Source of the DNA: Phalacrocorax aristotelis
Taxonomy: Eukaryota > Chordata > Aves > Suliformes > Phalacrocoracidae
Direction: 5' to 3'
DNA length: 64,000 nt
Assembly (NCBI RefSeq): GCF_949628215.1
Contig: NC_134282.1
Coordinates: 7,959,223-8,023,222 of the forward strand
Below are positions 35,121 through 60,757 of this stretch, piece after piece (the first letter of the stretch is position 1; each line of letters starts with the position of its first letter). Under the pieces are notes generated by a model. It saw only the letters and a list, made by a program, of their open reading frames with translations, was not told the DNA's origin and searched no databases. The position numbers and the translations under genes are program-made.

Positions 35121-35200
35121 GCGGCGCTGCGCGGGTGCGGTGCGGCGCTGCGCGGGTGCGGTGCGGCGCTGCGCGGGTGCGGTGCGGCGCTGCGCGGGGA
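35121..35200. repeat. 21-bp GC minisatellite, nearly four copies
   Basis: GCGGCGCTGCGCGGGTGCGGT is repeated three times without change, followed by a partial fourth unit. It sits in a small CpG-rich patch (35095-35245) without a recognisable gene. Confidence 0.9.
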
Positions 35201-35796: not shown

Positions 35797-36325
35797 GGCG
35801 CGATGGTATCTTCCCCAACACCCCTTTTCTTTTAACCTAATTTATACTATTTTTTACCTCTCAGGTGGAGCTTGAGTGACTCTGGTCATACACACCTTTA
35901 TTATGATTGGTGTAAAATTTCCTTGCTTTGCCCAGTGAAGGGTGGTTGCACCTTAGAGGCAGGTAGCTTTTGGGATGGAGGTGTGTTTTGGTATTATGAC
36001 AGCATTTTGTCAAAAGCATGACAGACTGTTGGCTCAGGGTAGCAAATGTGCAGTGTACCAGCTCCATGGTCACAGAGCCTGGCCATGGTGTCTCCACACC
36101 GCTCCACCCTCCGCACAAATCCTCTTCAGTAGTCAGAGTCAGTACAGAGTCAGCACACCAAGTTCTCCTGGTGTTGCTGTCATCTAAGGTTACGAGCCTA
36201 GGGGACTTCCATGGAATGGATTTCTCACCTGTCAGCCGCACCCTACCCTGCAAGCTTCTTCCATGCTGTACTTTTTCTAAAAACATAAGTTTAATTTCTA
36301 AGTCACCCCCAGCGACTATTCCACA
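35797..36325 (-). mobile_element. Truncated LTR, same family as the inner LTR at 38.3-39.4 kb
   Basis: From CGCGATGGTATCTTCC to GACTATTCCACA this stretch matches 38811-39371 nearly base for base with small deletions. On the minus strand it starts TGTGGAATAGTCGCTGG at 36325, the LTR 5' end. The other end is lost or diverged near 35797. Confidence 0.75.
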
Positions 36326-39912: not shown

Positions 39913-41765
39913 GCCTCAGGAAACTGAATTAAAGCCTTGCTTTACCCCTGCATGACTCCAGTTTACACTGGTAAAGGGTTGCTGATACAAAACTGGAACA
40001 GTATTTGCTGGTGGTGACCCAGGCCCTTGAAGGAAAAGACTTAATTTGAGTATTTTAGACCAAGTGATACAGCTGCTGTGAGACTCCACAATGTGTGCCG
40101 GGTTGGGCCTGCCTTGGGATAATTTATGAATACTTTGTGTGGGCAAAGTTATCAGGACGTTTATTGCATTAATATATTTCTTCACCTCAGTGTAAGGATG
40201 TCTGGAAAAAGTCAGGAACATAATGGTTCAAGACAGCCACCTTAGGAAGCTCTGAGTGGCTGTCAAGGGAAGGGGCGGGGAAAAGCAAAACCACCAGCTC
40301 AAACCCTCTGCATCACAGAGCCATCTTCCGTTTCTCATTTCATTTCTGCCTTGCTTTTTTTTTTTTTTTTCTTATTTACTCTCCATTGTGTCCTATTGTG
40401 GGCACTTATTTTCACTTTCAAACTCTTGTCATTGTTCCACGATCTTTTTCCACCTCCTTTATTTTATTCCAGGCTGGACTTCCCAGCGCCCGGCCTGCCA
40501 GCAGGGTATTGTTTACAAAGGGATTTCCTTCGGCGACTTTGCTGGCATTTTCACCTCTGCCTAAACTGACCCTACCTGTTGCTTTTCCAGGGTTTCACAT
40601 TAAATGTTTTTTTTTTTTTTTATTTGGTCAGGTTTTGATCACAGTTTTACAAACACCCTTTGCAGCCCGAGCATTATAGCTTGTTCCCAAGAGCTCTGAG
40701 CATATATTTTCCCTGGGGCTGTGGGTTTCCAGAATTGTTTGGCAGCACAGGGCTGGCAGGATGTGGCGGCAGCTGGGGGCTCTGGCTGGATGCAGGGGGG
40801 AGAGGGGAAGCGCTGAGGGGGCTCCTGATGCCACATCCAGCTCGTTAATACCCAGCACAGAAAGAGGTGGGAGCTAAGCACTTCAAAGGCACCTGGAACA
40901 GCATTTTGAGACTATGTTTACTTATATACTTACACTTGTTTATAGAACTTATCTTTTTTTTCTCATATGTGCCCTGGGCAGACACACAAAAGGTAACGCA
41001 AGGGGAGGAGGGTGATGCTGAGAGCTGTGCTGGGGCTGGATGGGCTTTTTGTGTAAGAGCTTTAAACAAGTAAGCTTTAAAACAAATATCTGATACATCC
41101 TCTTCCCAAAGGGCTTAGCTTGTCCTGGCACAAATCAAGAAGGCTTTGGGTATTTCCAGCCAGGTGCTCTTGGCTGGGAGGCAGAGGAGCAGTGAGGGGG
41201 GAAGTGAGGGTGTGGAAGGATGTGCAAGGGTTTCCTTGTCCAGAGCCCATCTGGAGGACTGGAAATCCCCGTTCCTGCAGGGCAGTTGGCCCTTGCCTGG
41301 GTGTGGGAGGCTCTCGCAGGGATGTTTTATTGCCCTGCAGAGGTGAGCGCTGTCCGCTGGCACTCACAGGGCAGAGGGCCTGCTGGCTCTGCAAGGTTTG
41401 CAGCAACTCTAGGGGCACCTTAGATGCTCCAGAAGCACTTTACTCCCAAAATGCTTCTGGTGGAGTAGCTTATATTCCCTTTTTCTTTTTTAAAAAAACA
41501 AACAAACAACCCATGTGCTGCTGCAGGTTTGGGCTGGCTTTTTTCTTTCTTTTATTTTTGTTTCTTTTTTTATAAGCAGTTCAGCCAGCATCTCAAAGGC
41601 AGATCCTGACAAGCCGCATGCGAGGGTGGCATGTGGCATTCTGCCGTCCCGAAGTCGCTGGTAGCGACTTTTCGGTGTTAAACCAAAAAGCAGGTTTGTT
41701 TGCCTGGTGTGCAAAATCCCAAACTACACACAGAGTGGAGGTATTTTATATAAGTAATTTTTGTG
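39913..41765. other. Intergenic region, nothing recognised
   Basis: Poly-T tracts at about 40355-40370 and 40607-40620 and short random frames only. Confidence 0.45.
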
Positions 41766-42796: not shown

Positions 42797-43412
42797 GCCA
42801 ACAATGTGCACTCACAGCCAAAAAGGCCAACCATGTCCTGGGCTGCATCAAAAGCAGCGTGACCAGCAGGTCGAGGGAGGGGATTCTGCCCCTCTGCTCT
42901 GCTCTGGTGAGACCCCCCCTGCAGTGCTGCGTCCAGCTCTGGAGCTCCCAACACAAGAAGGACATGGACCTGTTGGAGCGGGTCCAGAAGAGGCCACAAA
43001 AATGCTCCGAGGGCTGGAGCACCTCTGCTACAAGGACAGGCTGAGAGTTGGGGCTGTTCAGCCTGGAGAAGAGAAACCTGCAGGGACACCTTATCGCAGC
43101 CTTTCAGTACCTGAAGGGGGACTATAGGAAGGATGGGGGTAACATCTTTAGCAAGGGGTCATGGCTTTAAACTAAAGGAGGGTAGACTTAGACTGGATAT
43201 AAGGAAAACATATTTTACTATGAAGGTGATGAAACACCAGCCCAGGTTGCCTGGAGAGGTTGCGCCCCCTCCCTGGAAACACCCAAGGCCAGGCTGGACG
43301 GGGCTCTGAGCAGCCTGATCTAGTTGAAGACGTCCCTGCTCACGGCTGGGGGGTTGGGCTAGATGGGCTCTAAAGGTCCCTTCCAACCCACACCATTCCA
43401 TGATTCTATGAT
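42797..43412 (+). mobile_element. CR1 LINE 3' fragment, plus orientation
   Basis: Runs from GCACTCACAGCCAAAAAGG through CTGGAGCTCCCAACACAAGA and GTTGGGCTAGATGGGCTC to CCATTCCATGATTCTATGAT, the standard CR1 3' end. It is about 0.6 kb and its reading frames are broken by stops and frame changes. Confidence 0.93.
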
Positions 43413-43740
43413 ACCTCTATTCTATTCTACTCTATTCTTCTATTCTATTCTAATATATAATACCTAATATGTCCAGTATATCAGTAGTCTATATATATAT
43501 TTACGAAGGTATACCATATATACCTGTATCTATACTGAGAAAGCCCGTGTGTGACACCGACACGTACATGTGTATATATAGGTATGTATCTATATAGGAT
43601 ATATCTAGTACATGAGTATACTAGCGTATCTGGAACACATATATAGCATGCATACATACATATCTATATAGTATATACCCAATATACCAGTATATCTAGT
43701 ACGTGTAGGTACCTGGGGGTGTGTGTATATATAGACGCAT
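43413..43740. repeat. AT-rich TATATA/TCTAGTA simple repeat
   Basis: It begins as (TATTC)n directly at the CR1 tail and becomes a degenerate TATATATAGGTATCTA-type array. A second TG/TA array lies at 42700-42790 just before the CR1. Together they border the CpG island of the gene that follows. Confidence 0.8.
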
Positions 43741-43779
43741 AGCGAAGCGGACACAGCATACATCAGCACGTCGCTGCGC

Positions 43780-44780
43780 GCTGGCTCCGCGGCTGTGCGT
43801 GTCTCGGTAAGTCACGGACGTGCGTGGGCGGACCCTGTACCCCACGCAGCCGGGTTTTGGGGGGGACGACGGCAGCAGGGGCGTGGCCGAAGCCGCGGGG
43901 CGTGGCCGTGGCCAGGGCCGCCCCGGTGCTTGCCCGCGAGCTCCCGCCGCGCCGTTGCGGGCCGTCTCCCGCCGCGATGTCCCGCCGCGGGCAGGTGCCC
44001 GACAGGTGAGCGGGGACTGGGGGACCGGGGGTCTCGGCTGCCCCCCGCGATGCGTCTCCCGCCTCCCGGGGCCCTCCTCAGCGTCCCCGGGACCCCCCCG
44101 GGCCTGCCCCCGCCCCGCTAACCCCCGGTAACAGGCCTTCCCCCTCCCCGCATCCTCCCGATGCCCCCCTGCACCTCCGGACCCGCCCGATGATGCCACC
44201 CTGCGCCCGCAGCCCTTCCCGCCCTGCCTCCTCGCCCTCCCGCCCCCTCCCCATTCCCCCCCGCCCTCCCAGCCCCTCCCCATCCCCTCAGTATCCTTCC
44301 CGCACCGTCCCCATCCCCCAACATCCTCGTGTCTCCTCCATCCCTCGCCTCCCGCCCCCCGGCAGCACACACCCCCACCCCCACTCCCCCCCCGCCGTCC
44401 CGTATCCCCCACCTTGCCATACCCCAGCGTTGGCGCAGAGCCAAGGGGTTCCTTCCTACCCCCCCCCACCCCCCCCAAAAAAAAAAGCCACAGCGGTTTT
44501 GGGGCACAAGGCCCAGCCTTGCACCTGCAGCGGGGTCTCCCCGACACGCCCCCCTGCCCGCCGCCCGGCCCCGCTCATCATCCTCCGGCAGACAAAAGCT
44601 CTGGGAGAGCCGGCCCCGCACCGGCTTCGCACCGCCCCATCCCGCCCCGGGTCCCGCTCCACCGGCCCCGCACCATCCCCGGGCCCCGCTCCCCTCCGGC
44701 GCCCCGCACCGCTCCCGCCGCACCCCGGATGCCGCCATCAGAGGCGGCAGCTGGGGCCGTTTATCGTTTCCCTCTGAAGC
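43780..44780 (+). promoter_or_regulatory. CpG island, presumed promoter of the FIIND-death domain gene
   Basis: About 1 kb of CpG-dense DNA spanning the proposed start codon (43977) and first intron. There is no clear TATA box. Such TATA-less islands usually have spread-out start sites. The long open frames seen on both strands here are a product of base composition. Confidence 0.55.
43977..44005 (+). CDS. FIIND-DD exon 1 (start)
   Basis: ATG in a GCCGCGATGT context (G at -3), encoding MSRRGQVPD, donor ACAG|GTGAGC in phase 2. An in-frame upstream ATG at 43824 would add 51 residues. The shorter start is preferred for its context, but the choice is not certain. Confidence 0.55.
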
Positions 44781-47700
44781 TCTAACGGCCAGCGGGGTCA
44801 CCCCGCTTTGGTTTTGCTTCGGCGGGGGCTGGGAAACAACACCGCGGCCGTGCAGCGCTGGCAGGGCAGGGGATGGAGCTGGCAATGCCCGTCCTCCCCA
44901 TTGTAATTAACTGCGGGCGATAATTTCTTATACTGAGTAGGGCTGTTGGTTTTGTTTGGTTTTTTTTTTTTTTTTCCTCCCCGCTTCTGTCTTCCAGAGC
45001 ATGTTTTTTTAGCTTAGGAGGAGGGAAATATAACTGGGAGGCGGTATAAGCCTGCTGCAGGCAAACTGTATTTAGCAAGCCAGCACTTGGTGGAAAAGCG
45101 GCGCTTGGCTCAGGCGCTGTCTCTGGGGTATATCGAGGCTTTGTCCAAATCTTGCAGATTCTGTGTCATTACATTTTTTTGTTTGCTTGTTTTATACAAT
45201 TTGGAAGCGCAAACCCCATTGCATAATTTCCCATTCAGCCAGCTGTGGAACCCTTACCCAGTTTCTCCTGCATGTCTAACTGGCCACAGCACTGTCTTCT
45301 CTGCGCTTGGCTGACAAACTCTTACAGCTCCAGGTGGTATGGGACCATCCCCATACAGCCACCTACTCTGCTGTGCTTCGCCCAGGACCTGCCTTGCTTG
45401 CATCGCTTCACCTAGTGCCTGAAGCCATATGTTGGGGGATTTATTTTCCTGCCTCTACTGTTACCACCTATTCATTTTTTATTTTTTCATTTTATGTTTG
45501 AGCTGCCCCAGTGTGGCAATGGCCAAGGCTCCGACCCCCGTGGTGATGCCCACTCACCCTGGTAGCACTCCCCTGCTGCCAGGTGCGCCCCAGGGACCTG
45601 GGGCCCAGAGTGGATGGGCTGTGGATGCATGGCAGCGGCTTGGGTTGGTCACAATCGGCCTGCTGAGCAACTGCCGCAGCTTGGCTTCACCATTGCTAGC
45701 GTTCCTCGGTGTCACCCGGGCAGCACCGAAATCCCTCACCTACCTCCAAAGAGTGAGGCAATATTTGATTTTTCCCTGCCCGCATGGTATACAGCTGCTG
45801 GTCCAGCTGGGCGCTGGCAGGGCAGAGGGGCTGGAATATTTGCTCATGCCACCGAAATGATGGAGAGCTGGATGTCACCTGCTGGTTTATGGTAACTGCG
45901 CCCAGGGCAATTCCTTTCCGCAGCAGCAGCTTTTATGGTGGTTATTTGGTGGGGCTGCAAGTAGGATGTTGTAGAGCTCCATGGAAGGGTTTCCAGACCT
46001 GATCTTTATCTGTAAATGACAAAACCCCCACATTTCCCCTTTTCAAGAGCACACGGACACTGAAGGTTGGTCTGAATTTGGCACGGGCCACAAAATTGCC
46101 ACGGGCACAAATGGGAGTCACCTGCCACATCTGAGCCACTGTATTTATATGAGCTTCGAGACTTGCTGAAGAAGACCCTTTGGATTGCTACCAAAGCCAA
46201 CAGGCGCCTGGCATGCAAATTCTGGGTACTTTGCAAAAGGGGCCAGGGTCAAGGACTAGCGCCGGTGGGAGCCGTGCAGGGGAGCCAGGCATCCGCGGCA
46301 GGGCCAGGGCAAGAGCCAGGGCCATGGGTGGTGTTAGGGGAGATTAATTTCTAACCCCCAGCCTCCCATCCTAAGTTACATTATAACCTCTGGTTCCCTG
46401 GCCAAAGCCAGGGAGCAATGCCAGCGGGCAGGAAGGTGGGTAAATGCCTGCTTGTGTGTAGGTGTGGCGAAGGACTGGCAGATCTGCTCATGTGTTTCCC
46501 GTTTTGCCTTCCAGTGGAGCTGAATCCCTTTCTTCAGATGAACAAGGTACGATAAATGGGTTTGTTATGAGAAGTGCCCATCCTGTGGAATGGAAATGGC
46601 AATTTTATAACTGTCATTGTGTCATTGTGTAACTGGCATGGTGTAATGCCTTAGTTTAATGGAAAGGAGTTTTGATTTTTTTATACTGATTTCTAAAGTT
46701 CATATTCCTTTGCTATTTATCCCCTTCCTCTGACCTGCATAGTACAAAAACACCAAGAGAAGAGTTAAATCTTTTTCAAGCTGATATCCCTCAACTGTTT
46801 TTCTCTTGCAGAGGTGGCAGTCAGCGGTGTGGAGGGAGAGGGCTTGGCCGAGGAGCACCCCGCGGGTGAGCACACGTGTGGCTGAGGGCTTTCCCTATGC
46901 GTGGGATGGCATGGCTGGCCGTGCACCCACCATTTCCCTGTGCTGTGATAAAACCCACAGTGTAGGCACTGCTGCAACTCCTCAAGTCACTTGTTTTGCA
47001 ATATTGGTTTCTCTTCAACTTCTAAGAATAATTTATTAAAGCTCTGTAAGGCGCATCCCCATGAGTCATGTCGCTGGTGGGACATGCCAGCTCCCACCTT
47101 CTCCCACCTCACGTGTGTGTCACGGAAAACCATAATTTAGCTGGGTGAACTGGGATGTGCTATGGGTGAAGCTCCAAAATAGTCCCAGGTTGTATAAAAC
47201 ATTAAAATTCAACATCTTGAACATCACACGTACCTTTCAGAAGGGCCTGGGTGATGCCCAAGTCTCCTCTGATGCTGGTATTTGATGCTCCTCCCTGCCT
47301 AAGTATTTTTTCTGCCTTGTTATATTATCTAACTTGCTGACCAAGCTGATGCATTTAAACTTCTAGATGTCACCTTTTACTCACCTGTGGCATTGCTTTA
47401 TTTCATTCTGCCTGTGACTAATGGGGTGTCATTTTGTTAAGGAGAGGACAGTTCCGAAAACAGCTTGAGCAGCAGCTCGGAAGAGGAGTCAGGTGAGCAT
47501 CACGTTGCGATTTATCTATTTTCTCCCTTTTTAAAATGCATGTTCAGTTTAAACCAGCTGCTTTTCATGGGAATAGTCTCAGGGTTATTGTATGAGACTT
47601 TTAGTTCAGTGATTGTATGCTGAAAAGCAGAATGATATTTTGTGAGCCAATGATTTCCTAGCTGCTCTGTTTTGAGCTGAGCAATAACAGAGGAGCAGCA

Positions 47701-50700
47701 GCTAATGTTGCTTTAGCCTCATAGACACAATACATGCAGAGTTTTTTGCACCACAGTAGTTGTCCAAACACCAAGAGACTATAAATCAGCTTAGAATTTG
47801 GCAGCAAAAGTGGCAAAACAGGATGGACAGGAAAAAAATTAAAGGAAGCGTTTGCTGTTGATGAAAAGCCTGTGGGTTTGCGCTTACATGGGTTACACCA
47901 CCAGCAGTTTATTCTGGTTTCATGCAAGATTGATAGTCTTTAGTTAAGTAATTACAAAGCTTTTTCTCATTAGATGCGGAGTCGTCAGATGGAAGAAGGT
48001 CGGGTGAGTGTGCTTTTATTTTGTTCTTTATATCTGCCTTGCAAGGTATGAGGGCAGCATGGTTAAGGGATGCACGAGGGTAATGTCATGTGGTGGCAAG
48101 AGAGTGATTTAGTGCTAGCCCAGCCATCGCCTCCCATGTCTTTTGGTACAACTATTTGCTAGAGAGCGCACCCGAGAAAGCAGGGGGTGTGGGGGGTGTG
48201 TGTGCATGCACAGTGCACGCTTGCTGCTTCTGTTTGCAAATGGAGCTCAGCACAGAGCTGTGCATGCAGGGAGATGCCAGACAGAGCTGAGACACCCTTC
48301 CTCACCCGTGTGCTGCTGGTGGCCCCAGGTCACTGCAAACCCGCTGCAGCTCGGCGACTGAAATAGCATCGCTGCGGGAAGGGAGCCAACGCGCTGGCGG
48401 GTGTTTGCCTGATGCTTTCCAGGCTGTTCGCTGCAGCAATACGTTTTCCCACAGCTGCCTTTCCCAGGAGGGTGTTGATGTCCCAGGATGACTTTGGGAC
48501 AGCCTGGCTGGAGTCCCTGCTTGCCAGGAGGGCTGTTGGTGGGACGGGGAGCAGGAGCGAGCAGCACAGCGCCCGCGCCCCTGCACACTGGCAGCCAGCC
48601 TATCCTCACACCTTGTCACAATAGCTCTGCCGCTCAGCTTCTGCAAAATCCACCCTTCGGGCTAAAAGCTTTTGCCTGATGCGTCAGCTCTGCTTGCTTT
48701 CTGTTGTGTTAGGCACTAGCGAGGAGGATTCAGGCACTTCTAAATCACTTCAGGAACAAATACACTGCAAATAGTGTGGTTACCTGCTCACTGCGAAGCG
48801 CTGTTGCCAGCTTCTGTGCCGGGTGGTTAAACTTTGTACTTGACAGGATGAGACTCATCCTGGGGACGAGTCTGTTTTTAACCCCTGTGAAAATTTCCAG
48901 TAGTTTGAGCAAGTTACAAGCTCTTGACCAATGTTGTATCATGATATTCAGCTTCATCCCCACGGTGTGCCGAAGCCTGCACATGTGGGCGTGCAAGTGT
49001 GCCTGTAGGAACTTAGTTTTGGGAATATTCTCCCTGGGTATTTTTTAATGTAAGCAAATTAAACTAGTGGGTTGTCCTTGCTGAATATGGGAGCGGAAAC
49101 CTGCTGGAGGCTGAGGTATTTATTGCAAACTTCTTTTTTGTAGATGAAGAACAAGAGAAGAAGGAATCGCTATGGCACTGCAATGAATCAGGTAGTAACA
49201 GGTCTCTTGAGGGTTGGTGTTTTTTATCTAAGTATTACTTTGCTCTTAATGAGCTGGTCTTCCTGTTTTCTCACTAGGAGTGAACTGTCTGCCACCCTGT
49301 GAGCACTGCAGAAATGAAAATGTATGTTTATTAAAAAAAAAAACCCAACAACCCAAAAAACCCCAACACTTATTTTGCATGAGATAATCTGCAAATTGTA
49401 ATTCTGCTCTCTCATCACCTTTTTAAACATGTATTTTTCTTTTATCTATTTCCATAGGACCAGAGGGAGCAAGTGACCCCCAGGAGACTTTCTAGAGAAC
49501 AACTTGTGTATGGTTTTTTAATATAATGGGCATATGTTTATATTGTTCTCATCAAGATACTTCTGTCTTCAGTTTAAGTGGGGAAAAGATGAATTTGCTG
49601 CACAAATACATTTGGAGTTATAACGGATACCCCCAAATCCTTAAAAATAAACAATTTACAGTAGCTACCTGTGCTGCCTGCAGGTTGTGGTCCAAGAAAG
49701 CTCTTAGGGCGGCTTCCTGTCTGCCTCGTCTTGCTGCGGTCTTTAACATCAGGCGCATTTTTACATGCTGCTTTTTCAGTCTGGACGCACATGAGGGGTC
49801 TTGCCCTGCTTCACAGGAATACCTGTCCTTCCCGTTTGCACTGACCTTGCATTTTTTGTTGGACACCAGCCTTGTGCTTGCTCTCTCTGGCTTGGAAGTT
49901 GTCATCAGTGTGTGATGTTGGTGGTGTCCATGTATAATATTGGTCTTGTCAGTGTACAATGTTGGCTCTGACGTCGATGGGAGCTGGGCTGAGCCCTTCG
50001 TGTAAAAGCAGCTGCCTCATTTGCAGGAAACATGCAAAACGTTCATTGCAGCTATTTTGCATGCACTGGCTGGGTCCTCCCAGCCAGTTTTTAACACTCC
50101 AGTGACGGTTTAAACATAGAGACTGGAGGAAAAAAATTGTTGTGGCTTCTGTGCTGTTCACATAAAGTGCTCTGTGCTTCTTGGGATGGGAGTTTCTCTG
50201 TTATTCCTCACAAACCGCATTGTTACGGTATTTACTAGGCAGTGGAAACTAAACTAACTGGGTCACTCTTGCCCATGGCAGGGTGCAGCTGGACGCAGAG
50301 GGTACTTACCAGTGCAGCCTCACAGGCTTGATTTTTGAAGTAACGGGCGCTGTCAAAATCACGTATTCCCTCTTATCCTGGAGCAAATATGCCCACCTCG
50401 TGGAAAAGCCGTGGATCGTGGGTGGCCCCCTCTTCGACGTGCACTGTGATTCGCCTCTCGCTCTCACCTCCATCCAGTTTCCCCACTCTCTCTGCCTCAG
50501 TGGTGAGTGCTGGCTACTGGCCCAGCGGGCGCGGGGTGCTGCCGGCTCCTCGGCACAGGAGGCGCTGAGATGGCCTCGTGTCCCCACAGATCATGGTGCT
50601 GGCATGGCCTTCAAGGTTTTGCACATCAAAGACAAGGGTGTAGACATTGAGCCCTCCGCTGACTACTCAGCCTCGCACGTGAAGTGGCTGGTGAGCTCGC

Positions 50701-53700
50701 TCTCGCCGGTGGGACCAGTCATCCAGAGCCAGGAGCCAGTGCAGTACTACGGCGTTGTCATCCTCTACAAAGTTGTCGACAAGCATCCCTCTTTATCTTT
50801 TCGGGTCTACGTGGCTACAAACAATGACTCTGTTATAAAGGTATGGCTCGTGTTGGTGATGTAGGGTGGTGTGATGTAGAAATACTGGCAGGGTGGGTTA
50901 TGGGGATGCTGTGTTGAGGATGGGGTATGGTGAAGAGATGCTGTTCTCTTGCCCCAATGTTTGCATGCAAAAATAATATATGTGTTAAAAAAAAAAATAT
51001 ATATATAAAAAATAAGACTTTCATACTGAAAAGGTCTGCTAAGTTAGGATTTGATATTTAAGGAATTATACTGGCCCACACAGTCACTCACAAGCTGCTA
51101 TAGAAAAGAAATACATCAGAAACCTGTTTTCCACCAAAATCCATGGAGCTTAGGGTTTGTATCTGAAAGAGCTTCTTGTCCTCTCGCCCATTCCCCCCTA
51201 CAATATGTAGGCAAGCACTAGGAGACGACATCAACAAATAACCTTCCTTTTATTCAGGTAGCAAACTCTTCTATCTAATTTTGCCCACGTAGCATAATAG
51301 CTGAAGAAGTCTATCTGATGTTTTTTGAGCATGGTGTTTAGTGCACAGCTTTCTGTAAAGTTTGCTGTGTGGAACAGGTCGTGGCCATTTCATAGAGCTG
51401 GGGAGAGAAGAGCCCAAGGAGCCCCATGAGCACAGGTTTTAAATGTTAATTCCTTTACTGAGGTGAATAACCTTTACATTGTGTTTTTAAATTTTAGGAT
51501 ATCTCAAAAGCTGTAAAATCTTCAAAGCCGAAAGTCATTAAAATTGACAAGCCCCCTGCATGCCAGAAATTACTACAGAAAGGAAAGAGATACAGATTAG
51601 TTTGTGAGCCAGAAGCTGAAATAACTCCAGAGGTAAGTCCTTTACACAACCTTCATTTCGTGCATTGCAGCTGGATTAGAAATGTGGTACAAAATGGCTT
51701 TTCTTGCAAAATTAAGGGCATTTTTCACATTCATTTGCCATCGCTGCAGAAAACATTTGCCTCTTACAGCCCTAAAATTTTGGGATGAAATCCTGATGCC
51801 AAAGTCAACAGCAAAACTCTGGGGAGATTACAGTTGGGCTCAGATCTGTGCCAACAGCCAAATACACCTCTTTAGTTTATGTTTGGATAAATGTTTATTT
51901 TTAACATATTTACATTGTATAGGAAATTGAATTTTTTGATGAATCTCTCCTGAAACTAAAAAATTACATTGAAGTCTATTTGGAGAAACCTGATGACATC
52001 ACCCTGCGTTTGGTTGAGCTGGAGTCTGATGCAACTGTATGGACAGCAAAACTAAGAGAGTGTGAGTCTTTGGTCTTCCCACGACTAGTTTGTTCCTGTT
52101 GAAAAGATGCAGAGGTTGGGATATAATTCAGCCCTTAGATGCACCGAAATTTCTGCTGTTAATTGTGAGGTTTGGAGCTGGAAGTGATAAAACACAAAGC
52201 TCTGGGAGGTCATGTAGTGGATGTTGCAGTAACCTGCAGAATCCCTTGTGAGCAAACAGGCAAAGGCATCAGGGCTGTGGGGTGTGCAGGAGGACGCTCC
52301 ACTTTAGTTTTAGTTCTTAGGAGTAATATGCAATCTCTGGTGCATATTATAGATGGTGTGCTGCAGCACATTGGATAAAAGGGGAAAAATCATCTCATTG
52401 TATAAAGTTGTAGCTCAGCAGCCAGAATCCACCCAACAGCTTGGTTTTGTGCCTGAGAACTGTTGGATATAGGGCATACCAATGGGAAATCCTACCTCAC
52501 CTTTTGTTTCCTCTGAAAACTGTTTACCAGGTGACTGGATACATTATGATGAGAACAAAAATGAGCAGAAGAGAAGCACAGGCGGTAAGTCATTTTGAAG
52601 ATAAGTCGGGGTTGCTTGTTCTCTGCGTACCTCGCTTGCTGTTGTAGACTGGGTGGTGTGAAAGAAGTAACATCACCTCTCACTTGCTTCTTAGGTGTCA
52701 AAAAACGGACAGCCATCAATGTTTCAAAAGAAGATGATGAGCTCTCTAGCAAAAAGCAAAAGATTGGCAATGCTGCAGGTAGACCATTTCTGTGTCGTTT
52801 AAGATAACGGATTTGTGGGGTGTTTTTGTATCCCGTGAACTGAACCTGAGCTCACTTTTTTTAAAGACTTCCACGAATGTGAGCATGAAATATAGCAGGA
52901 GAAAGTACTGCTTTTGTAGATGCAGGATTTGTACCTACATTTGTATACCTCGGTACGCTTTGCCATTCATTCGGTAAATAAACAGGGAGAAGCAGCTTAG
53001 GAAATTTGCTTTATAAGGGTCAGCTAAAATGGTATTGTCTTCTAAGTCTGGGAAATAGTGGCTCCTTTTGAAAGGCGTTTCCACTACATGTCTCGGATTT
53101 TGTGTTTGGGATACCTCCTGAGCCATAATAGGCTGATTTTTATTGAAAAAGTTCCCTCCTGTTTATTGTTGACATGTGATGTTCTGATGGTCAGAAATGC
53201 CTGGTGTCTGGGAGCTCCCGCCCAGAAACTATGCATTTACTAATAGTTACTTGGAAAAAATACAGAAGCAATAATGTTAGTTCAATAAATAATGGAAAAA
53301 AAAATCAGCAAAAGTAGCCATGTAGGTGTTTATGGGTGCATGTAGCCACCAGAGGGAGAGCTTTCATCCAAGCCTCAGTTTTATGTGTGATTGGTGACAC
53401 CAAGAAGGGAAGCAGCTCAGTCCCTGTAACCCTGCGGGCTGAGACTTCTGAGCTGATGTAATTAAAGGAAAAAGAGACATCTGGAGCAGCTGTAGGTTTC
53501 AGAAAAACTGGCATCTGAACTTGCCAGGAGGTAGCAAGTGTTTAACATGGCCTTGATGTTACACGTCTCAAAATCTCTAGGTGCTTGGTGAACTAATGTA
53601 CAGTTTGTACTGTTATTCTACTAGATGAACAGCTGCTTCTAAATGGAAAAAAAGTCCTTTATGGCAGCCAGCATGCAGTCAGATGTTGTCATCTTCATGA

Positions 53701-54970
53701 GCCAGGCTTCTTAGTCCTTCAGGTGCTTTTCTCCAGCACTTGGCCCTGACCTTGCTGGGTAGTCTGATTAATAAGATCACCTTCATCGTATGTCCCCAGC
53801 CGCGCAGAGAACTAGTAGTGTCATTTAGTGACAAGTTTAATGAGAAAAGCAGTGTTAAATCTGATTTTTGTTCTATATCTTTTCAGATGAAATAGGAAAA
53901 AAAAGCTTAACTGATAAACAGCTGATGGTGATTGCAAAGTTGTTTGGGAAAGAGTGGAAAGAAATTGCCATTGAGTGTCTTCAGGTGGAAATGAAAGACA
54001 TTGAGCAGATTCAGGCAACAGAGGAAGGAGTTAATATGCAAAAATTTCGGGTGTTAAGCAAGTGGAGAGACAGAGAGCAAGGCAATGGAACTGCAGAAGC
54101 TTTGTACAGAAGTCTCCATGATAAAGTGTCCTATAACATACTGGAAACCCTAGAAGGTATCTCCTTCCCATTATATTTATTTAATTACATCAGCATGTTT
54201 CAGATGTATTTTAAGAATTTTCATCAGAGGTTTGCTGAATACCTAGTAAAAGTTTTACTACGTAGGTCAAAATTGTCTCCCTTCTCATATTAGTAATGAC
54301 TTTCTTGTGGCATTTTTTATACTTCCCTTCAGAAACTGATATAAAATGAATAATATTTTTGCATTGACTGTGTTGAGAGTACTCCAGCATGACCTAGCTG
54401 TCACGGCCAAACCAGTCAATGTTATATACCCAAACCAATTCTTGGTTTTCTCAGAAAGTCCAAAGAAGAGATGTTTGGGTCTTTTATGTATTTTAGGAAG
54501 GGTTAATTAACACTTTCCTCTGACGGGTGACTTAGCAGTTCGGTCCTGCAGATATATGTGTATATTTATTTCCTTACTGCCCATGGGTGCTCCCACTGAT
54601 TTGGTGGGGCTCCTTTATGTTCAGTTCATCCTGCGCATACCAGAGTTGTTCAGTGGGCTGAGAACTCAACCAGCCAAGGGGAATCTTTCTTAAAGATGAA
54701 ATAGATATATAATTTTTTTTTGAAACAAGCAAAGCTTTGCTCTTTCTTAACTCTCTCTAAAAGCAGCCTGGTTTCCAGGCATGGAGAGCTGCTCGTGCTC
54801 CCTCGCTCACCTGACCCTCACAAACCTGTCTGCGCCATAGCCTTGCGCTGTTTCATAGGCTTTTAATATGTTTATTTTTCAACTTGAATATTGCGGTAAC
54901 TTGTAGAAATCAGATAATCTGTGTGTGTTTGTGCGTGTTCCTCTCCTCAGATTTCTTGGCTCAGTGCTGA
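43977..54970 (+). CDS. FIIND (ZU5-UPA) plus death domain protein, ~510 residues, 17 exons
   Basis: Exons: 43977-44005, 46515-46546, 46812-46865, 47442-47492, 47974-48003, 48713-48733, 49144-49191, 49278-49321, 49458-49507, 50282-50502, 50590-50840, 51498-51632, 51923-52061, 52531-52584, 52695-52778, 53887-54156, 54951-54970. Phases agree at every junction. Domains: residues 10-88 acidic Ser/Glu-rich; 84-99 small Cys/His cluster; ~120-231 ZU5-like half of FIIND (EKPWIVGGPLFDV); ~232-368 UPA half; 387-411 basic linker; ~420-505 death domain (GKEWKEIAIECLQVEMKDIE, VLSKWRDRE). FIIND is known from CARD8 and NLRP1, where it cleaves itself and the C-terminal CARD fragment signals to caspase-1. Here H205 and S232 are in the right places, but the effector is a FADD-like death domain. 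PIDD1, UNC5 and ankyrins also combine ZU5-UPA with death domains, but the PLFDV region resembles FIIND more. Role in cell-death or inflammatory signalling is inferred. Confidence 0.82.
44006..46514 (+). other. Intron 1 of the FIIND-DD gene
   Basis: The first 0.8 kb is a continuation of the CpG island, with a C-run/A-run at 44458-44488. The rest has no recognised element. Confidence 0.5.
46515..46546 (+). CDS. FIIND-DD exon 2
   Basis: Acceptor CCTTCCAG, donor CAAG|GTACGA. It encodes (S)GAESLSSDEQ. Small and acidic, with a casein kinase 2-like SSDE site. Confidence 0.6.
46812..46865 (+). CDS. FIIND-DD exon 3
   Basis: Acceptor TCTTGCAG, donor GCGG|GTGAGC. It encodes EVAVSGVEGEGLAEEHPA. It has phase 1 on both sides. 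Confidence 0.6.
47442..47492 (+). CDS. FIIND-DD exon 4
   Basis: Acceptor TTGTTAAG, donor TCAG|GTGAGC. It encodes GEDSSENSLSSSSEEES. It has phase 1 on both sides. Confidence 0.65.
47974..48003 (+). CDS. FIIND-DD exon 5
   Basis: Acceptor CTCATTAG, donor TCGG|GTGAGT. It encodes DAESSDGRRS. It has phase 1 on both sides. Confidence 0.6.
48713..48733 (+). CDS. FIIND-DD exon 6 (tentative, GC donor)
   Basis: Acceptor TGTGTTAG. It encodes GTSEEDS and ends TCAG like exons 4 and 7, but is followed by GCACTT instead of GT. Reading on reaches a stop (TAG) at 48773. Either a GC-AG intron is used or the exon is dead and skipped. Skipping keeps the frame and gives 503 residues. Confidence 0.4.
49144..49191 (+). 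CDS. FIIND-DD exon 7
   Basis: Acceptor TTTTTGTAG, donor TCAG|GTAGTA. It encodes DEEQEKKESLWHCNES. It has phase 1 on both sides. Confidence 0.65.
49278..49321 (+). CDS. FIIND-DD exon 8
   Basis: Acceptor CTCACTAG, donor AAT|GTATGT. It encodes GVNCLPPCEHCRNEN. With C85 and H84 of the previous exon it forms a C-x6-C-x3-C-x2-C cluster that could bind a metal. Confidence 0.65.
49458..49507 (+). CDS. FIIND-DD exon 9
   Basis: Acceptor TTCCATAG, donor TTGT|GTATGG, phase 2. It encodes DQREQVTPRRLSREQL and leads into the FIIND domain. It fits the phase of the next exon exactly. Confidence 0.65.
50282..50502 (+). CDS. FIIND-DD exon 10: first half of ZU5-like domain
   Basis: Acceptor ATGGCAG, donor AGTG|GTGAGT. 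It encodes VQLDAEGTYQCSLTGLIFEV and HLVEKPWIVGGPLFDVHC, and ends IQFPHSLCLS. This is the most FIIND-like part by eye. Confidence 0.9.
50590..50840 (+). CDS. FIIND-DD exon 11: catalytic His/Ser and start of UPA
   Basis: Acceptor CCCCACAG, donor AAAG|GTATGG. It contains KVLHIKDKG with H205 and, 27 residues on, SSLSPVG with S232. The UPA half then begins (YYGVVILYKVVDKHPSLSFR, VYVATNNDSVIK). Confidence 0.9.
51498..51632 (+). CDS. FIIND-DD exon 12: UPA
   Basis: Acceptor AATTTTAG, donor CCAGAG|GTAAGT. It is exactly 45 codons and encodes DISKAVKSSKPKVIKIDKPP and GKRYRLVCEPEAEITPE, strands of the UPA sandwich. Confidence 0.9.
51923..52061 (+). CDS. FIIND-DD exon 13: end of UPA
   Basis: Acceptor TTGTATAG, donor GAGT|GTGAGT. 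It encodes EIEFFDESLLKLKNYIEVYL and LVELESDATVWTAKLRE. The TVW pattern matches the LVW of the CARD8/NLRP1 FIIND end. Confidence 0.9.
52531..52584 (+). CDS. FIIND-DD exon 14: linker
   Basis: Acceptor GTTTACCAG, donor GGCG|GTAAGT. It encodes CDWIHYDENKNEQKRSTG, a hydrophilic linker. Confidence 0.8.
52695..52778 (+). CDS. FIIND-DD exon 15: basic linker
   Basis: Acceptor GCTTCTTAG, donor GCAG|GTAGAC. It encodes GVKKRTAINVSKEDDELSSK followed by KQKIGNAA. Two basic clusters (KKR at 389-391, KKQK at 406-409) resemble a bipartite nuclear localisation signal. Confidence 0.8.
53887..54156 (+). CDS. FIIND-DD exon 16: death domain
   Basis: Acceptor CTTTTCAG, donor GAAG|GTATCT. It encodes a complete death domain: SLTDKQLMVIAKLFGKEWKE, then EMKDIEQIQ, VLSKWRDRE and GTAEALYRSLHD. 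The two Trp residues, the spacing of six helices and the GTAEAL segment resemble the FADD death domain. Confidence 0.9.
54951..54970 (+). CDS. FIIND-DD exon 17: C-terminal six residues and stop
   Basis: Acceptor CTCCTCAG. It encodes DFLAQC then TGA at 54968-54970, completing the last death-domain helix (NILETLEDFLAQC). An alternative would be read-through of exon 16 into the intron. Confidence 0.6.
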
Positions 54971-57393
54971 GCTGGTGAAGCCGCAGCTAGGAGGAGTGCG
55001 GCGGGAGCTTCCCCAGCCAGCCGTTACACTTCTCCGGCCGCTTCCCTGGGATCTTGCTGAGATTTGGGAAGGAAGATGCAAGGCATCATCACTCAGTGGA
55101 AAGCTTAGGTAGGATCTTCACAAGGAATGTGAATGAAATTTTGTGCAGATATAAGCTCACGTAAGACTTTACAGAGACTACCACTACTCATGGATCCCAG
55201 CACTGCAGCCGGGAGTGCTGGGCATCATGGACAGGGAATCCCAACACTGCCACCCAGCTTTGTCTCATTTGAGCCAGTCCTAAAAGACATGAACACTGGA
55301 AGAAATGAGTTTACTTTGTTCAGGTATATGATCGTTACCTAGAAACGTTTTTATTTACATCAGGTAAAGACGGACAAAATTTATGCAGAAACTTTTGTCC
55401 CCTGTAAAAAAAAAATTGAACTGCTGAAATCATGAGGTATGTTGTATTTCTCACAGAAGACCAAGATCAGGGAAGAATAACCCTAAACTTGCAGATAAAT
55501 TCTTTTGCATAATCACTATATGTATACATAATTACTGTGTATACTCATGTACATTCAGTCCTTGTTAAGCTGTTCTGTTTTCTGAAAAGCTGAAGACTAG
55601 TTTCGCGGGAATACCACTGTCAACTCCAGGCAGCTTTGAATTTTCTCTGGGAATTTCTTCTTCACTCTTTTCTGTATAGCCTTGTCTAAATTTTTATGAT
55701 TTTTTTAATGTTCTATACTTTTTTAAACTTTTAGAGACTTTTTGTACTTTTTTTTTTTACTTGATTAACTTGAATACAATTAGGTGCTCAAACAAAAATG
55801 GAGGAAGCCAAAATCTCTGCAAAGGCTTTTATTCTGTTGGTAATGCATATACTACAGAGTTGTGAATGATATGAAAATAATGTTATTTGTGGAAAAGAGG
55901 GGCAACCCCATATGGGAGATTGTCATGTTTTTAAAGACATGGGATTCTTTTGAGAATGTTCCTCTGTGTATGTTTATGAAAGAAAAAGCATACTTAAAAA
56001 AAAGAAAAATCATATGTAAATAGCATAAATGTTTCCTTTTTAATCCTTTTTTTACATTTTAGCTATTGGATGAAATGTTGCAAGGTTGTGTATGTTGTGG
56101 GCCATCTTTCCAACCCTTGGTGCTCTACCGCTACATACATCCCAGGGGGTGGCCGAGTAAAAGGGCTGTGCTGGTGCCCAGGACCTTGTGGGCTTTTCTG
56201 CCAGTGGGGCTTTTAGGGGAAAAAAGCTTGTGGGAGGCAGGGAGGCTCGTGTGGGGCTCTCCATCCCCAGGCAGAGCTGCCCTTGGCTCTTATCTCTGGG
56301 AAAGCAGGGGTAAGTTGCCAGCAGGGGGACCATGAAGATACCCAATGCAAACAAAGCGCTAATAGGACCCTCTGGTGAGAAGCAGAAATCAGTAAATCTA
56401 AGCTGGAAATAAGATGGTTGGTTGTAACAGTGAGCATAACTGGATTGCGTGGCCGATGGTCAAAAGAGATAAGGTCTTCAACCCTCAGGATCTTTAAATC
56501 AAAATCAAGAACCTTTTAAAAAAAATTATATTGCGTAGTCTTCCTTTTGGCTTTGTCCAGTTCTTGCAGGCAGAAGGAAGTAAAACATTACACTTGCACG
56601 AGGTTGCTCTTCCCTCACACGTTGGTCTGAGTGGCGGGTGGTCTGTGGGAGCAGGGACCACGGCTCTGGTTCCGTTAGAAAGCTCTGGGAATGTATAAGA
56701 TTACATTTTAAGAGCTGGTGTGGTGTGCAGGTGACGTCAACGCGTGGGGAAGAGGGGAGAGGGTGAGGACAGCAACTGTCCCCTCGGCATTTGGAAGAGC
56801 AGGGGTCCCACTGGCCCCTCAGCATCAAAGGGAGCTGCTTGGGGGCTCCCCGAAGAGAGGGGAGGGCCGAGCTTGGAGAAACCAAGCAAGGGGAAGAGCG
56901 CTAAAGAGCAAGGCCCTGTTGCTGAGGAGCAGCGGAGGCAGCAGGGGAGCTGGCTGGGACATACATGGTCAAAGTCATGGCCAAGGACAGACCCGCCAAA
57001 GAGGGACACCTTCGTCTGGGCTGGCTTACCTGCCACAGGGAGGAATGGGGAGGATAATCATCCCAGCATCCCTCCTGGCCTTCAAAGCTATGCATAAATC
57101 CTTGCCTCACCAAAACAGACAATTTAGCCATTGATTTCAGAGGGGCCAGGATTGCACCACAGAAACTATGTAACTGGCTGGAAAATCACTGTAAATAAGG
57201 ATGAAATAGAGTGGGTTGCTTTGAGTGTTCACTCTGAGAAAAAAATCCACAAGAAACACAGCTAATGTAAGTAAAAAGACAGAAAGAGGATTTTAAAATA
57301 TGATACCAGTGCTGAATGTTACTATGGTATACTATGCCAGCAATATTTAAAGTATTTCAAAAGTATTAATGCTATAGGTCAAGGAAGGAAAAA
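54971..57393. other. FIIND-DD 3'UTR and convergent intergenic space
   Basis: The 3'UTR of the plus-strand gene must start here, but I see no standard AATAAA on the plus strand before the AT-rich end of IL12A. AT-rich stretches with A- and T-runs lie at 55400-56060. From 56.1 to 57.1 kb the DNA is GC-richer with chance open frames on both strands. Confidence 0.45.
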
Positions 57394-57425
57394 AACCCAC
57401 ACCACTTTTTAATGCAAACTTTAGT

Positions 57426-57523
57426 TTTATTAGGCAATAAATAGAATAAATAAGGAATATAATCATAAATAAGTTGATTATTATAAATATGTTTCAATTT
57501 CTGAAAATTACAGCTGAATAAAT
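57426..57523 (-). promoter_or_regulatory. IL12A: IL12A 3'UTR: AU-rich elements and poly(A) signal
   Basis: Read on the minus strand, five ATTTA pentamers (57523-57519, 57488-57484, 57470-57466, 57451-57447, 57442-57438) lie in 86 nt. Two sit in TTATTTATT nonamers. They are followed by AATAAA at 57431-57426 and a GT-rich stretch just downstream. This is the usual arrangement for an unstable cytokine mRNA. Confidence 0.75.
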
Positions 57524-57793
57524 AAGACAAATCACAGTTGAGTGTTTGGTGGTTTGAGAACATTTTGGTACTACGATGTAGCTTATTTTCTAGAAATCCA
57601 GAAGTTTACCATGATGGCTTATAAGGCACTGACAACAGCTTGCTAAAACATGATATATAAGAAATTCTGTGAAATTTTATGTGCTTGGTTCCTAGAAAGC
57701 CCCCAGCCACCTTGCAGGATATTGACCCTACTATTTTTTCTCCAAAACTTCCTTAAGTCAAATTTATACCCAACGTGCTGGAGGGCTGGGCGC

Positions 57794-57961
57794 TTACAGC
57801 AAGCTCTCTGGAGAGGTCAGGTAGTTCATCATCCTGTTGATGGTGACTGTGCGGATTCGGAAGGCGTGAAGGATGCTGCAGAGCCTCATCCTTTCCTTGA
57901 AGGAGGTCAGCCCTGTGCCTGCTGGTGGCTGCGGCACACTCCTGCTGCTGGTCTTCAGGGC
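57794..57961 (-). CDS. IL12A: IL12A exon 5: helix D and stop
   Basis: Acceptor CTCCCCAG. 55 codons then TAA. It encodes [20 protein letters not shown], then [20 protein letters not shown] and [15 protein letters not shown]. Helix D is the p40-facing and most conserved part. Confidence 0.95.
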
Positions 57962-60757
57962 CTGGGGAGAGGTAGGGGCATTAAAAACTGGCACCAGAAA
58001 GTGGCTGAAACAGGAAGCTCTAAGTTTTTTCACCCCCTGAGAGATAATTGACAAAACTTAGGAGTAAGAATGTCTTCTCATAAATGAAAAATTTCAAGTA
58101 TTTCATGATATACTTAATAGACTTAGGATGCGCAGCTGTACTTTCCTTGAGACAAAAGCGTCCATTTGTGCGCAAAGGCTCTTTCTGCCCAAGAATAAAG
58201 ACGCTTATTTAATAATGCCTTGCCTAGCCACCCCTTAGACTAGGCTCATCTGCCCGTGGCTAGGATCTCCAGGCTGTTGGGAGATGCTGTGTCAATACAA
58301 AGGCAATTAACTTTTGTTTTTTTAAAGTAGCTTTCGTTAAGCAAACAAACAAGCAAGCTTTTAATATCTATTCCCTGTACTCACTAATAATATTTATCAA
58401 AATTCATACTCCTTATTTCATATCCAGTATACCAGGTGTATCATATTTCAGTATTTGGAAGAGAAATAGAGCGATGTCCCTGTATCCTTTTACCCTATTT
58501 TTGAGTTCTCTGAGGAACTGGCAGAAAATCCTGTACCCTGTCTCCTTGCAAGAGCAGAGCTGTGTGAAAGAAGGGGGGCCGCTAAGGAGCCATTCCTCTG
58601 AGTCCTGATGTGTTGACCATAGACCCAAGGCAAAAACACAAAGTGAGACATGTAATTCATAAGAATCAAGTCCCTTCCAGGAAAAAAGGTAACAGACGAC
58701 TCTTTAAATTACCAGATTAAAGGAAGGTCACTATTTGACTGACTACAGAATGGAGCACACTGGATCAAAAACTCTGGTTTAAGGCAGAAATACCTACTTT
58801 CATCAGTTCATCAATAGCTGCCAGCACCTTTTGATCATTGAAGTTCTTCAGCTCTGCCTTGTAGGCATTCAGATCCTCATAGATGCCCTGCAGGCATTTA
58901 CTCTGAAAAGTCAGAATTATTAGGAAATGCAGGAATCTTTTGTTAAATGCTTTAAACATACAACAAGCAAAAGAAGGGGTTCTTTCGGGAAACTTGCAAT
59001 TTACCGTATCAAAAGCAGATCTTTCCAGTGCTGGACAGTTTCCAGTCTGCAAATTGAAGAAGTGAGACATGGTGATTTTGTGGAATTGTGAATTATACAG
59101 CTGTTCCATGAAAATACGATGCTGAAACTTGACATATTTTTTTTTACCCCTGGATCCTCAGATGTGCAAGCTTTTATCGTGTTGATTTGATCCTTAGTGA
59201 TATCTTCAAGATCAACCTCTTCAAGGGTACATTCAAATCCCAGTGTGCCAAGCTCCTGTATTAAAAAGAGAATAAAAAAGGGTCATTGACTCAGCTTCAC
59301 AGTACTGTTTGTGTATATATATATGTAAATACACACAATTATAAGCGATGCATTACAGCTGTCTGCACTTGGCTGAATCCTAGGAATGAGGCTGTGTGAG
59401 GGCAATGGTTAAATATGAAAGCTAGCAAATAGACTGAGACTGAAATGCATGCATGTTTAATGGGAATACACTCAGGCTTTGTACTGATTTGTTCTATATG
59501 TTGTTGCAAATTACACTACCTCCATCACTTTAAATTATTTTATCAGACATTGAATCTATTGAGAACTTTATGCCACTAGAGTCTCAAATGTAAAGTGTCT
59601 CTTCGAAAGTGAAAAAGAATTAATAAATACCATCTGCAGACTTTTAACAGTGCTCACTGACCCACCGCAGGTGTGGGAACAGTGGCCCTATTTAGTGGTG
59701 GGGGATTTTGCGGTTGTCCGAGATGAAGCTTGCAACAATAGCAGGGAATTTTAGAAAAAAAAAAAATCCTCTTGGCACTATTGCCAGGAGGCTTTAGTGT
59801 GGTAAGTTGCTATAGCACCAAACCAACGACACCAGCAACAACATGCAAATGTAACGACAAAATCAGAAGCAAATATTTCCTGAGCCAACTCTGCAAGGCC
59901 CTTAGAGAAAAAGCATGTTCAAAACTGAGAGCACTCAAATCAGCTGTCAATGCACCACTGGCACCGCTAACGCTGTGTGTGTTTCTGTGGGGCTGCAGTG
60001 AATAAGGGCTGAGAAAGACACCTGAGCAAATCCCCATTTGCTGGTCAGGGGAGGCGTGAAAGCAAAGACCAGATACAGACTCTTAAAGGGAGTCTATAGA
60101 GACCTTCCGCCTGCCTGGGTGCCCTCACCCACCCATCACCACCCTCCTGGGTGCCATCCTCTCCTGTCTGGGTACCATCACCCACCCATCCTCTCCTGTC
60201 TGGGTACCCTCGCCCACCCATCACCACCCTCCTGGGTACCCTCACCCAGCCATCACCACCCTCCTGGGTGCCATCCTCTCCTGTCTGGGTACCGTCACCC
60301 ACCCATCCTCTCCTGGGTACCCTCACCCACCCATCGCCACCCTCCTGGGTGCCATCTCCTCCTGTCTGGGTACCCTCACCCACCCATCCGCTCCTGCTTG
60401 GGTACCCTCACCCACCCACCGCTGCCCTCCTGGGTGCCACCCCTTCCTGCCCAGGTCCCCTCCCCGACCCCCGCATACCTTCAGCCGGTGGAGGGAGGCG
60501 TTGGCGGCCTCCAGCAGCTCCCGGGAGCGGCTCAGCCTCTCGGCCAGGCCGTGCTGGGGGGACGTCGGCAGCGCCCGGGCGGGGGGCAGCAGGGCCAGCG
60601 CCAGGCAGAGCGCGGGCAGCAGCACCCGGGGCCCTGCCCGCTGCCTGCAGCGCCGGAGCGCGGCGCTACGCGGCGCTGCCCGCCCGCCGCTGCCCGCCCC
60701 GCCGGTGCCGCTGCCCGCCCCGCCGGTGCCGCTGCCCGCCCCGCCGCGCTGCTCCAT
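57794..60757 (-). CDS. IL12A: IL12A, interleukin-12 alpha subunit (p35), ~233 residues
   Basis: Secreted four-helix cytokine subunit that pairs with p40 (IL12B) to form IL-12, which drives Th1 and NK responses. Five coding exons on the minus strand: 60757-60479, 59255-59148, 59046-59005, 58902-58798, 57961-57794, all with matching phase 0 junctions. Residues 45-62 are a hydrophobic signal sequence ([18 protein letters not shown]) preceded by a Gly/Ala-rich stretch. Recognition motifs are [41 protein letters not shown] and [20 protein letters not shown], which line up with human p35 in order. One N-glycosylation site (NAS) is at residue 86. The only Met in exon 1 is the chosen start. It is convergent to the FIIND-DD gene. 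Confidence 0.95.
58798..58902 (-). CDS. IL12A: IL12A exon 4
   Basis: Acceptor CTTTTCAG, donor ATGAAA|GTAGGT. 35 codons encoding [20 protein letters not shown] and [15 protein letters not shown]. It is shorter than the human exon, with about 13 residues missing between the two helices. Confidence 0.93.
59005..59046 (-). CDS. IL12A: IL12A exon 3 (14 codons)
   Basis: Acceptor AATTTGCAG, donor GATACG|GTAAAT. It encodes [14 protein letters not shown]. In human p35 there are two consecutive 14-codon exons of this kind, as I remember it; only one is seen here. Confidence 0.88.
59148..59255 (-). CDS. IL12A: IL12A exon 2
   Basis: Acceptor TAATACAG, donor CCAGGG|GTAAAA. 36 codons encoding [20 protein letters not shown] and [16 protein letters not shown]. 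The (V/I)DxEDITKD motif is diagnostic for p35. Confidence 0.95.
60110..60440. repeat. Minisatellite in IL12A intron 1, ~30-bp units
   Basis: About ten diverged copies of units such as CACCCACCCATCCTCTCCTG and TCTGGGTACCCTC, beginning only about 40 bp after the exon 1 donor. It reads through as repetitive frames on both strands that are not genes. Confidence 0.88.
60479..60757 (-). CDS. IL12A: IL12A exon 1: signal peptide and helix A start
   Basis: 93 codons, donor AAG|GTATGC. The N-terminus has a tandem GTGGAGS repeat from a 21-bp DNA repeat, then [19 protein letters not shown], then helix A ([20 protein letters not shown]). Confidence 0.9.
60687..60745 (-). repeat. IL12A: 21-bp tandem repeat inside IL12A exon 1
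   Basis: CCGCTGCCCGCCCCGCCGGTG (+ strand) occurs twice in full and once in part. In the minus-strand frame it adds GTGGAGS units to the N-terminal extension before the signal sequence. Confidence 0.85.

Follow-up and report, generated by a model that had tools for sequence, protein, structure and literature searches.

The mammalian proteins NLRP1 and CARD8 end in a CARD. They are also reported as the only mammalian proteins that carry a FIIND (PMC11760013), in which the N-terminal part is described as restraining the UPA-CARD fragment until it is degraded (PMC7794386; PMC11760013; PMC12945228), and UPA as reducing the threshold for CARD filaments (PMC7794386). The order ZU5-UPA-death domain is found in PIDD1, the UNC5 receptors and the ankyrins, among which PIDD1 is described as a self-cleaving LRR protein with an HF/S site after each ZU5 (PMC3210808). 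TRADD-N domains fused to FIIND have been reported as well (PMC8195603), and the anole protein LOC100556846 (PYD-FIIND), encoded in the PYCARD region, is reported as a sauropsid FIIND protein whose death-fold domain is a PYD, neither a CARD nor a death domain (PMC13076529). Then, could a FIIND be followed by a death domain? Here, we describe such a case in a stretch of 64,000 nucleotides from the bird Phalacrocorax aristotelis (assembly GCF_949628215.1, contig NC_134282.1, positions 7,959,223 to 8,023,222; hereafter the window). The gene, located at 43977-54970 on the + strand near IL12A, is confirmed from the sequence as apparently intact, and is predicted to encode a FIIND followed by a death domain, with no CARD. 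No FIIND-death-domain protein was found described in the accessible parts of the open literature searched, and public gene predictions may hold one, for example as NLRP1-like.

Gene model and domains of the predicted protein

Re-assembly from the sequence, splice sites and exon-wise frame tests gives 16 exons with GT-AG introns, which join in one frame of 500 residues and run from an ATG within a CpG island to a TGA (Table 1). The first-pass annotation had proposed 17 exons in a single frame over the same interval. The start, the end and the single frame stand, whereas a 17th exon was not found, no donor scoring above 1 being present within 49440-50281. Beyond the island, the CpG observed/expected ratio is 0.31-0.35 (500-base windows, 45000-46749) and 0.17-0.45 in 1000-base windows over 46500-58499, where no other island is seen. 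An alternative acceptor for exon 9 at 50282 would require a different upstream phase. AATAAA sites are located downstream of exon 16 at 57436, 57445 and 57517.

The predicted protein was searched against the Pfam profiles at E<=1, with the curated cut-offs applied. Three families were found, all of them above their cut-offs: FIIND (PF13553; 9.4e-36, 122.8 bits, cut-off 25.8; residues 113-233, profile positions 12-130 of 131), UPA-FIIND (PF23679; 2.5e-25, 89.7 bits, cut-off 27; residues 238-355) and Death (PF00531; 7.9e-6, 26.4 bits, cut-off 22.6; residues 415-494), the last being matched at 29.3 bits and 9.9e-7 when the open frame of exon 15 is taken alone. The first-pass annotation had read the protein as having a FIIND of the NLRP1/CARD8 type, with a death domain behind it in the place of a CARD, and had suggested a profile search for FIIND, ZU5, UPA and Death as a check; the search, run with the predicted protein, found the three families above and bears this reading out. 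No further family was found in the protein at this threshold, and in particular no PYD, NACHT, LRR or CARD, by which it differs from NLRP1. Upstream of the gene, the longest + strand frame in 24.1-43.7 kb has 164 residues (41081-41575) and was judged too short for a NACHT exon, these frames not having been profile-scanned.

Comparison with solved structures points in the same direction for the FIIND. For the whole protein, 19 sequences are listed. Six of them belong to NLRP1 or CARD8, with rat NLRP1 as the best (9.4e-20), and the others are THOC1 (3), RIPK1 (4), ankyrin (2), CRADD (2) and NvfI (2). For the FIIND alone, rat NLRP1 (3.5e-19), human NLRP1 (8.7e-14) and CARD8 (2.1e-11) are matched, and NLRP1 and CARD8 account for 6 of the 15 rows at E<=10, the remaining ones being weak and unrelated; none of these rows is a UNC5, PIDD or ankyrin chain, although these proteins have the same ZU5-UPA-death domain order. 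The N-terminal 112 residues, directly before the FIIND, are acidic and serine-rich (29 D/E, 20 S, 11 K/R). In this low-complexity N-terminal region the protein resembles CARD8, for which an unstructured region ahead of the FIIND is described (PMC12945228). A 312-residue scan of viral contigs gave five pattern matches and no relatives.

The death domain had been called FADD-like in the first-pass annotation, and this part is not supported. With the death domain alone as the query, the 14 PDB rows at E<=10 comprise THOC1 (3), RIPK1 (4), ankyrin (3), CRADD (2) and PIDD (2), and FADD is not among them in this single-sequence comparison, whereas 11 of the 37 rows obtained in a control, with the THOC1 death domain as the query, are FADD. 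The best match is THOC1 (1.2e-6), and the ankyrin death domains are among the nearest; CRADD (0.028 and 0.037) and PIDD (0.17 and 0.33) rank below THOC1, most ankyrin rows and RIPK1. A special kinship with THOC1 was considered and rejected, since the THOC1 control also lists ankyrin, FADD, RIPK1, PIDD, TRADD, CRADD and MyD88 chains.

Profile matches tie the exons of the FIIND to one another: junction 9/10 falls within the FIIND match, and junctions 10/11 and 11/12 fall within the UPA match. Exon 12 leaves in phase 1 and exon 15 accepts phase 1, while the lengths of exons 13, 14 and 15 are multiples of 3, and the same stop is reached when exon 8, exon 13, exon 14 or exons 13 and 14 together are omitted. 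When exons 9-16 were base-shuffled, none of 5000 sets stayed open in a shuffle that does not preserve dinucleotides. The join from UPA to the death-domain exon is predicted from strand, splice sites and phase. Among 35 + strand frames of at least 45 codons in 52.6-58.8 kb (E<=1), Death in the exon 15 frame is the only death-fold match, and no CARD occurs. A death domain in one exon with phase 1 at both ends would have the form expected of a shufflable exon.

Intron 9 (50503-50589) has 87 nucleotides, a multiple of 3, and no in-frame stop, and exon 9, intron 9 and exon 10 form a single open frame (50253-50864). Retention of this intron would add 29 residues to the ZU5 half.

Kinship to the FIIND-CARD gene on contig C15

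The genome from which the window is taken (1,278,995,914 bases) was searched with the FIIND profile. Four matches were found, all above the cut-off. Exons 9 and 10 described above account for two of them, and the other two are located on contig C15 at 5897087-5898762. The open frames in 40 kb around the latter were scanned with Pfam, and gave FIIND (6.3e-30 and 2.4e-11), UPA-FIIND (1.5e-7 and 8.4e-9, and a third match at 5.8e-5 that stays below the cut-off), CARD (1.5e-15) and ubiquitin (1.2e-12). Five exons of the C15 gene join in frame from the FIIND to the stop past the CARD, and as judged from these frames the animal holds an ordinary FIIND-CARD gene besides the FIIND-death-domain gene. 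This gene may be either NLRP1 or CARD8 by name. The ubiquitin-family open frame lies about 2 kb upstream of the C15 FIIND and is likely part of the same gene, which would then encode a possible ubiquitin-like-FIIND-CARD protein. The first-pass annotation had suggested that the gene in the window could be the FIIND sensor of birds in place of a missing NLRP1. As put, this suggestion fails, because the same genome carries the FIIND-CARD gene.

The two genes differ in their C-terminal domain, in the cleavage motif and in the upstream ubiquitin-family frame, and they share only 24.6% identity in the FIIND. The FIIND in the window is 29.0, 27.1 and 24.5% identical to those of rat NLRP1, human NLRP1 and CARD8, respectively (28.5, 26.6 and 23.1% in a larger alignment), while the corresponding values for the C15 FIIND are 44.0, 43.9 and 39.4%. 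The C15 FIIND is closer to the mammalian ones, and therefore species distance cannot account for how far the gene in the window has diverged; by these comparisons it is a separate, diverged FIIND gene. However different in sequence, the two genes agree in structure: all four FIIND/UPA junctions (after exons 9, 10, 11 and 12) match in alignment columns and in phase (1, 0, 0 and 1). The shared junctions provide strong independent support for exons 9-12, and also support the kinship of the two genes. It is at the phase-1 intron after UPA that the two genes part, the C15 gene continuing with a CARD and the gene in the window with a death domain.

In an unrooted tree of five sequences, the gene pairs with the C15 gene (support 0.956, branch 1.59). 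A branching outside NLRP1 and CARD8 was dropped in view of this pairing. As the long branches make its placing in the tree unsafe, the gene could represent either an old lineage or a duplicate that evolves fast.

Cleavage residues and the proposed switch

For CARD8, cleavage is reported to be abolished by S297A and reduced by E279A, and H252 and H270, but not H333, to be crucial for it (D'Osualdo et al., PMC3210808). In the alignment, H252, H270, E279, S295 and S297 of CARD8 are kept as H178, H195, E204, S220 and S222, the positions from E279 to S297 being aligned gap-free, while H333 corresponds to R255. A proline follows the cleavage serine, as in NLRP1. That is, four of the five positions reported important for CARD8 cleavage (H252, H270, E279, F296 and S297) are kept, and on these residues self-cleavage of the FIIND-death-domain protein is plausible, not assured.

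Based on the sequence, we consider it probable that the gene works and that its product is a separate kind of FIIND protein, with a switch that frees the UPA-death-domain fragment. The predicted layout begins with a region of about 112 residues that is acidic and rich in serine, continues with the FIIND (ZU5 and UPA) and a short basic linker, and ends in the death domain. The FIIND would cut itself between L221 and S222, with the two parts remaining associated as in CARD8 and NLRP1. Destruction of the N-terminal part, either following a cut by a foreign protease or through ubiquitin and the proteasome, would then release the UPA-death-domain fragment, and UPA would cluster the death domains, so that a candidate adaptor or kinase (RIPK1, CRADD/RAIDD, FADD or the like, not ASC/caspase-1) could be recruited. 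FADD is reported to be conserved across all vertebrates (PMC12119088). The output may be cell death or NF-kB signalling, alongside the ordinary FIIND-CARD route. It is a more tentative proposal, which we hold with less than even confidence, that some sauropsids possess a pair of FIIND switches, of which one carries a CARD and the other acts on death-domain partners in place of ASC and caspase-1.

The observations that weigh against a working switch concern the cleavage site, the partner and the gene model. The partner of the death domain is a guess. At the cleavage site, F296 of CARD8 is replaced by L221, and the motif is SL/S, not the SF/S retained by the FIIND-CARD gene of the same genome; F296H of CARD8 is reported as severely defective, and the UNC5B counterpart of F296 as Leu-677 (PMC3210808). 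E285, modelled as contacting the CARD in CARD8 (PMC3210808), corresponds to S210 here. As to the gene model, exons 1-8 lack homology support, the donor of exon 8 (CTT|gtgtat) is weak, at the 60th percentile among 722 GT sites, and exon 7 spliced directly to exon 9 is likewise in frame. The frame also holds without exon 15, and a form without the death domain is therefore possible; moreover, intron 14 contains AATAAA sites at 52977 and 53284. The single-sequence structure model of the death-domain exon, with a mean predicted local distance difference test score (pLDDT) of 57.7, is too poor to inform on the fold, and its matches are bromodomains, serine acetyltransferases, ribosomal S15 and other helical proteins; for this low-confidence model no death domain is among the structure matches listed (50 of 119 for Foldseek and 50 of 215 for VIA). 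The model of the contiguous piece of exon 9, intron 9 and exon 10 has a pLDDT of 32.4.

The replaced phenylalanine, which is kept in the FIIND-CARD copy, suits a protein that stays uncut and serves as a scaffold, or as an inhibitor that binds the freed UPA-CARD fragments of the FIIND-CARD protein. UNC5B, with leucine at the same place, is not known to be cut. In addition, uncut NLRP1 and CARD8 are reported to bind and restrain C-terminal fragments (PMC11760013). However, the nucleophile serine, both important histidines and the glutamate are all kept, and a dead switch would not need them, which leaves the uncut form unlikely, though it deserves to be kept in mind. If the protein is cut, its fragment could also act as in a PIDD-like nuclear switch, in which the basic linker brings the freed UPA-death-domain piece into the nucleus, where it drives caspase-2 by way of CRADD/RAIDD. 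The basic clusters do lie between UPA and the death domain, CRADD and PIDD are both among the 14 PDB sequences listed for the death domain, and PIDD has the same domain order and cuts itself. We nevertheless regard this as improbable: CRADD and PIDD take low ranks in that list, the FIIND has no PIDD match, and the nuclear role of the basic clusters is a prediction from their motif.

Two further explanations would do away with the protein itself. The FIIND exons and the death-domain exon could belong to separate transcripts, as no homology spans junctions 12 to 15 and intron 14 contains the AATAAA sites given above. However, the strand is common, the phase matches with or without exons 13 and 14, the CpG observed/expected ratio does not exceed 0.45 over 46.5-58.5 kb with no second island seen, and the other 34 of the 35 + strand frames in 52.6-58.8 kb show no death-fold match, which makes separate transcripts very improbable. 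Nor is there much room for a decayed gene whose exons merely look intact, to which the weak donor of exon 8, the replacement of F296 and the long branch in the five-sequence tree could be attributed: 500 codons run without a stop, no shuffled set stayed open, the start lies in a CpG island and the catalytic residues are kept. We give decay hardly any weight, and a working FIIND-death-domain gene with a releasable C-terminal fragment is the reading we prefer.

Neighbourhood and biological meaning

The coordinates of the gene and its surroundings are listed in Table 1. The DUF4719 match is presumably C3orf80, and between it and the FIIND-death-domain gene there is a tandem array at 35117-35210 (a GC-rich 21-base unit, 4 copies, 98% matches). 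Two more arrays are found near the IL12 matches: one lies 5' of the IL12A matches at 60114-60470 and has 81-117-base units (scores 336-380), and the other, at 60686-60746, is a GC-rich 21-base array. An open frame of 198 residues occupies 29845-30441 on the - strand; its end resembles what we take to be a piece common in bird CR1-type repeats, and a similar stretch is present on contig C15 at about 5902317. Another CR1-like stretch is located at about 43000-43410, just upstream of the promoter. The + strand frames 36000-36377 and 38871-39326 share the stretch FVKSM.DCW.RVAN.Q.TSSMV, seemingly a repeat present twice.

Table 1. Features of the FIIND-death-domain gene, its neighbours in the window and the FIIND-CARD gene of the same genome
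Feature	Position	Strand	Basis or remark
IFT80-type TPR match	9.6-9.9 kb	+	profile match
DUF4719 match	23.3-23.9 kb	-	profile match
CpG island, promoter and first exon	43500..45249		CpG observed/expected 0.67-1.19, GC 0.50-0.77 (500-base windows)
Exon 1, start codon at 43977	43977..44005	+	donor CAG|gtgagc; without homology support
Exon 2	46515..46546	+	splice sites, frame; without homology support
Exon 3, 54 nt	46812..46865	+	splice sites, frame; without homology support
Exon 4, 51 nt, acidic and serine-rich	47442..47492	+	splice sites, frame; without homology support
Exon 5, 30 nt	47974..48003	+	splice sites, frame; without homology support
Exon 6, 48 nt	49144..49191	+	splice sites, frame; without homology support
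Exon 7, 44 nt	49278..49321	+	splice sites, frame; without homology support
Exon 8, 48 nt, least certain	49458..49505	+	weak donor; frame kept without it
Exon 9, first FIIND part (ZU5 half)	50289..50502	+	His matching CARD8 H252 at 50484-50486
Exon 10, remaining ZU5, cleavage site, UPA start	50590..50840	+	Pfam, CARD8 alignment, shared junctions
CARD8 H270 counterpart, exon 10	50622-50624	+	CARD8 alignment
CARD8 E279 counterpart, exon 10	50649-50651	+	CARD8 alignment
CARD8 F296 counterpart (Leu), exon 10	50700-50702	+	CARD8 alignment
CARD8 S297 counterpart, exon 10	50703-50705	+	CARD8 alignment
Exon 11, UPA half	51498..51632	+	Pfam, shared junctions
Exon 12, UPA end	51923..52061	+	Pfam, shared junctions
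Exon 13, linker, 54 nt (multiple of 3)	52531..52584	+	frame
Exon 14, linker, 84 nt	52695..52778	+	frame; basic clusters KKR...KKQK at 52700-52762, presumably a possible nuclear signal (predicted from motif)
Exon 15, whole death domain, 270 nt	53887..54156	+	phase 1 in, 1 out; Death 9.9e-7 for the exon's frame
Exon 16, last residues	54951..54970	+	assembled frame; TGA 54968-54970
IL12 matches, two	58.8-59.3 kb	-	29.8 bits, above cut-off; 22.5 bits, below cut-off 25
FIIND-CARD gene	contig C15, 5897095-5903414		open frames with FIIND, UPA-FIIND and CARD; SF/S motif

A gene that pairs a FIIND with a death domain, and has its exon junctions in common with the FIIND-CARD gene, would identify the switch as a module able to drive more than one death-fold output. 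If the more tentative two-switch proposal is true, the protein would be a sensor of proteases or degradation with an ASC-independent output, or a cross-regulator of the FIIND-CARD protein. It is also a candidate for cell-death signalling in birds, in which RIPK3 and ZBP1 are described as lost (PMC12119088); PYCARD is described as present in all species examined except chicken (PMC13076529). Through the death domain, a switch of the NLRP1/CARD8 kind may act on a cell-death or signalling pathway other than theirs.

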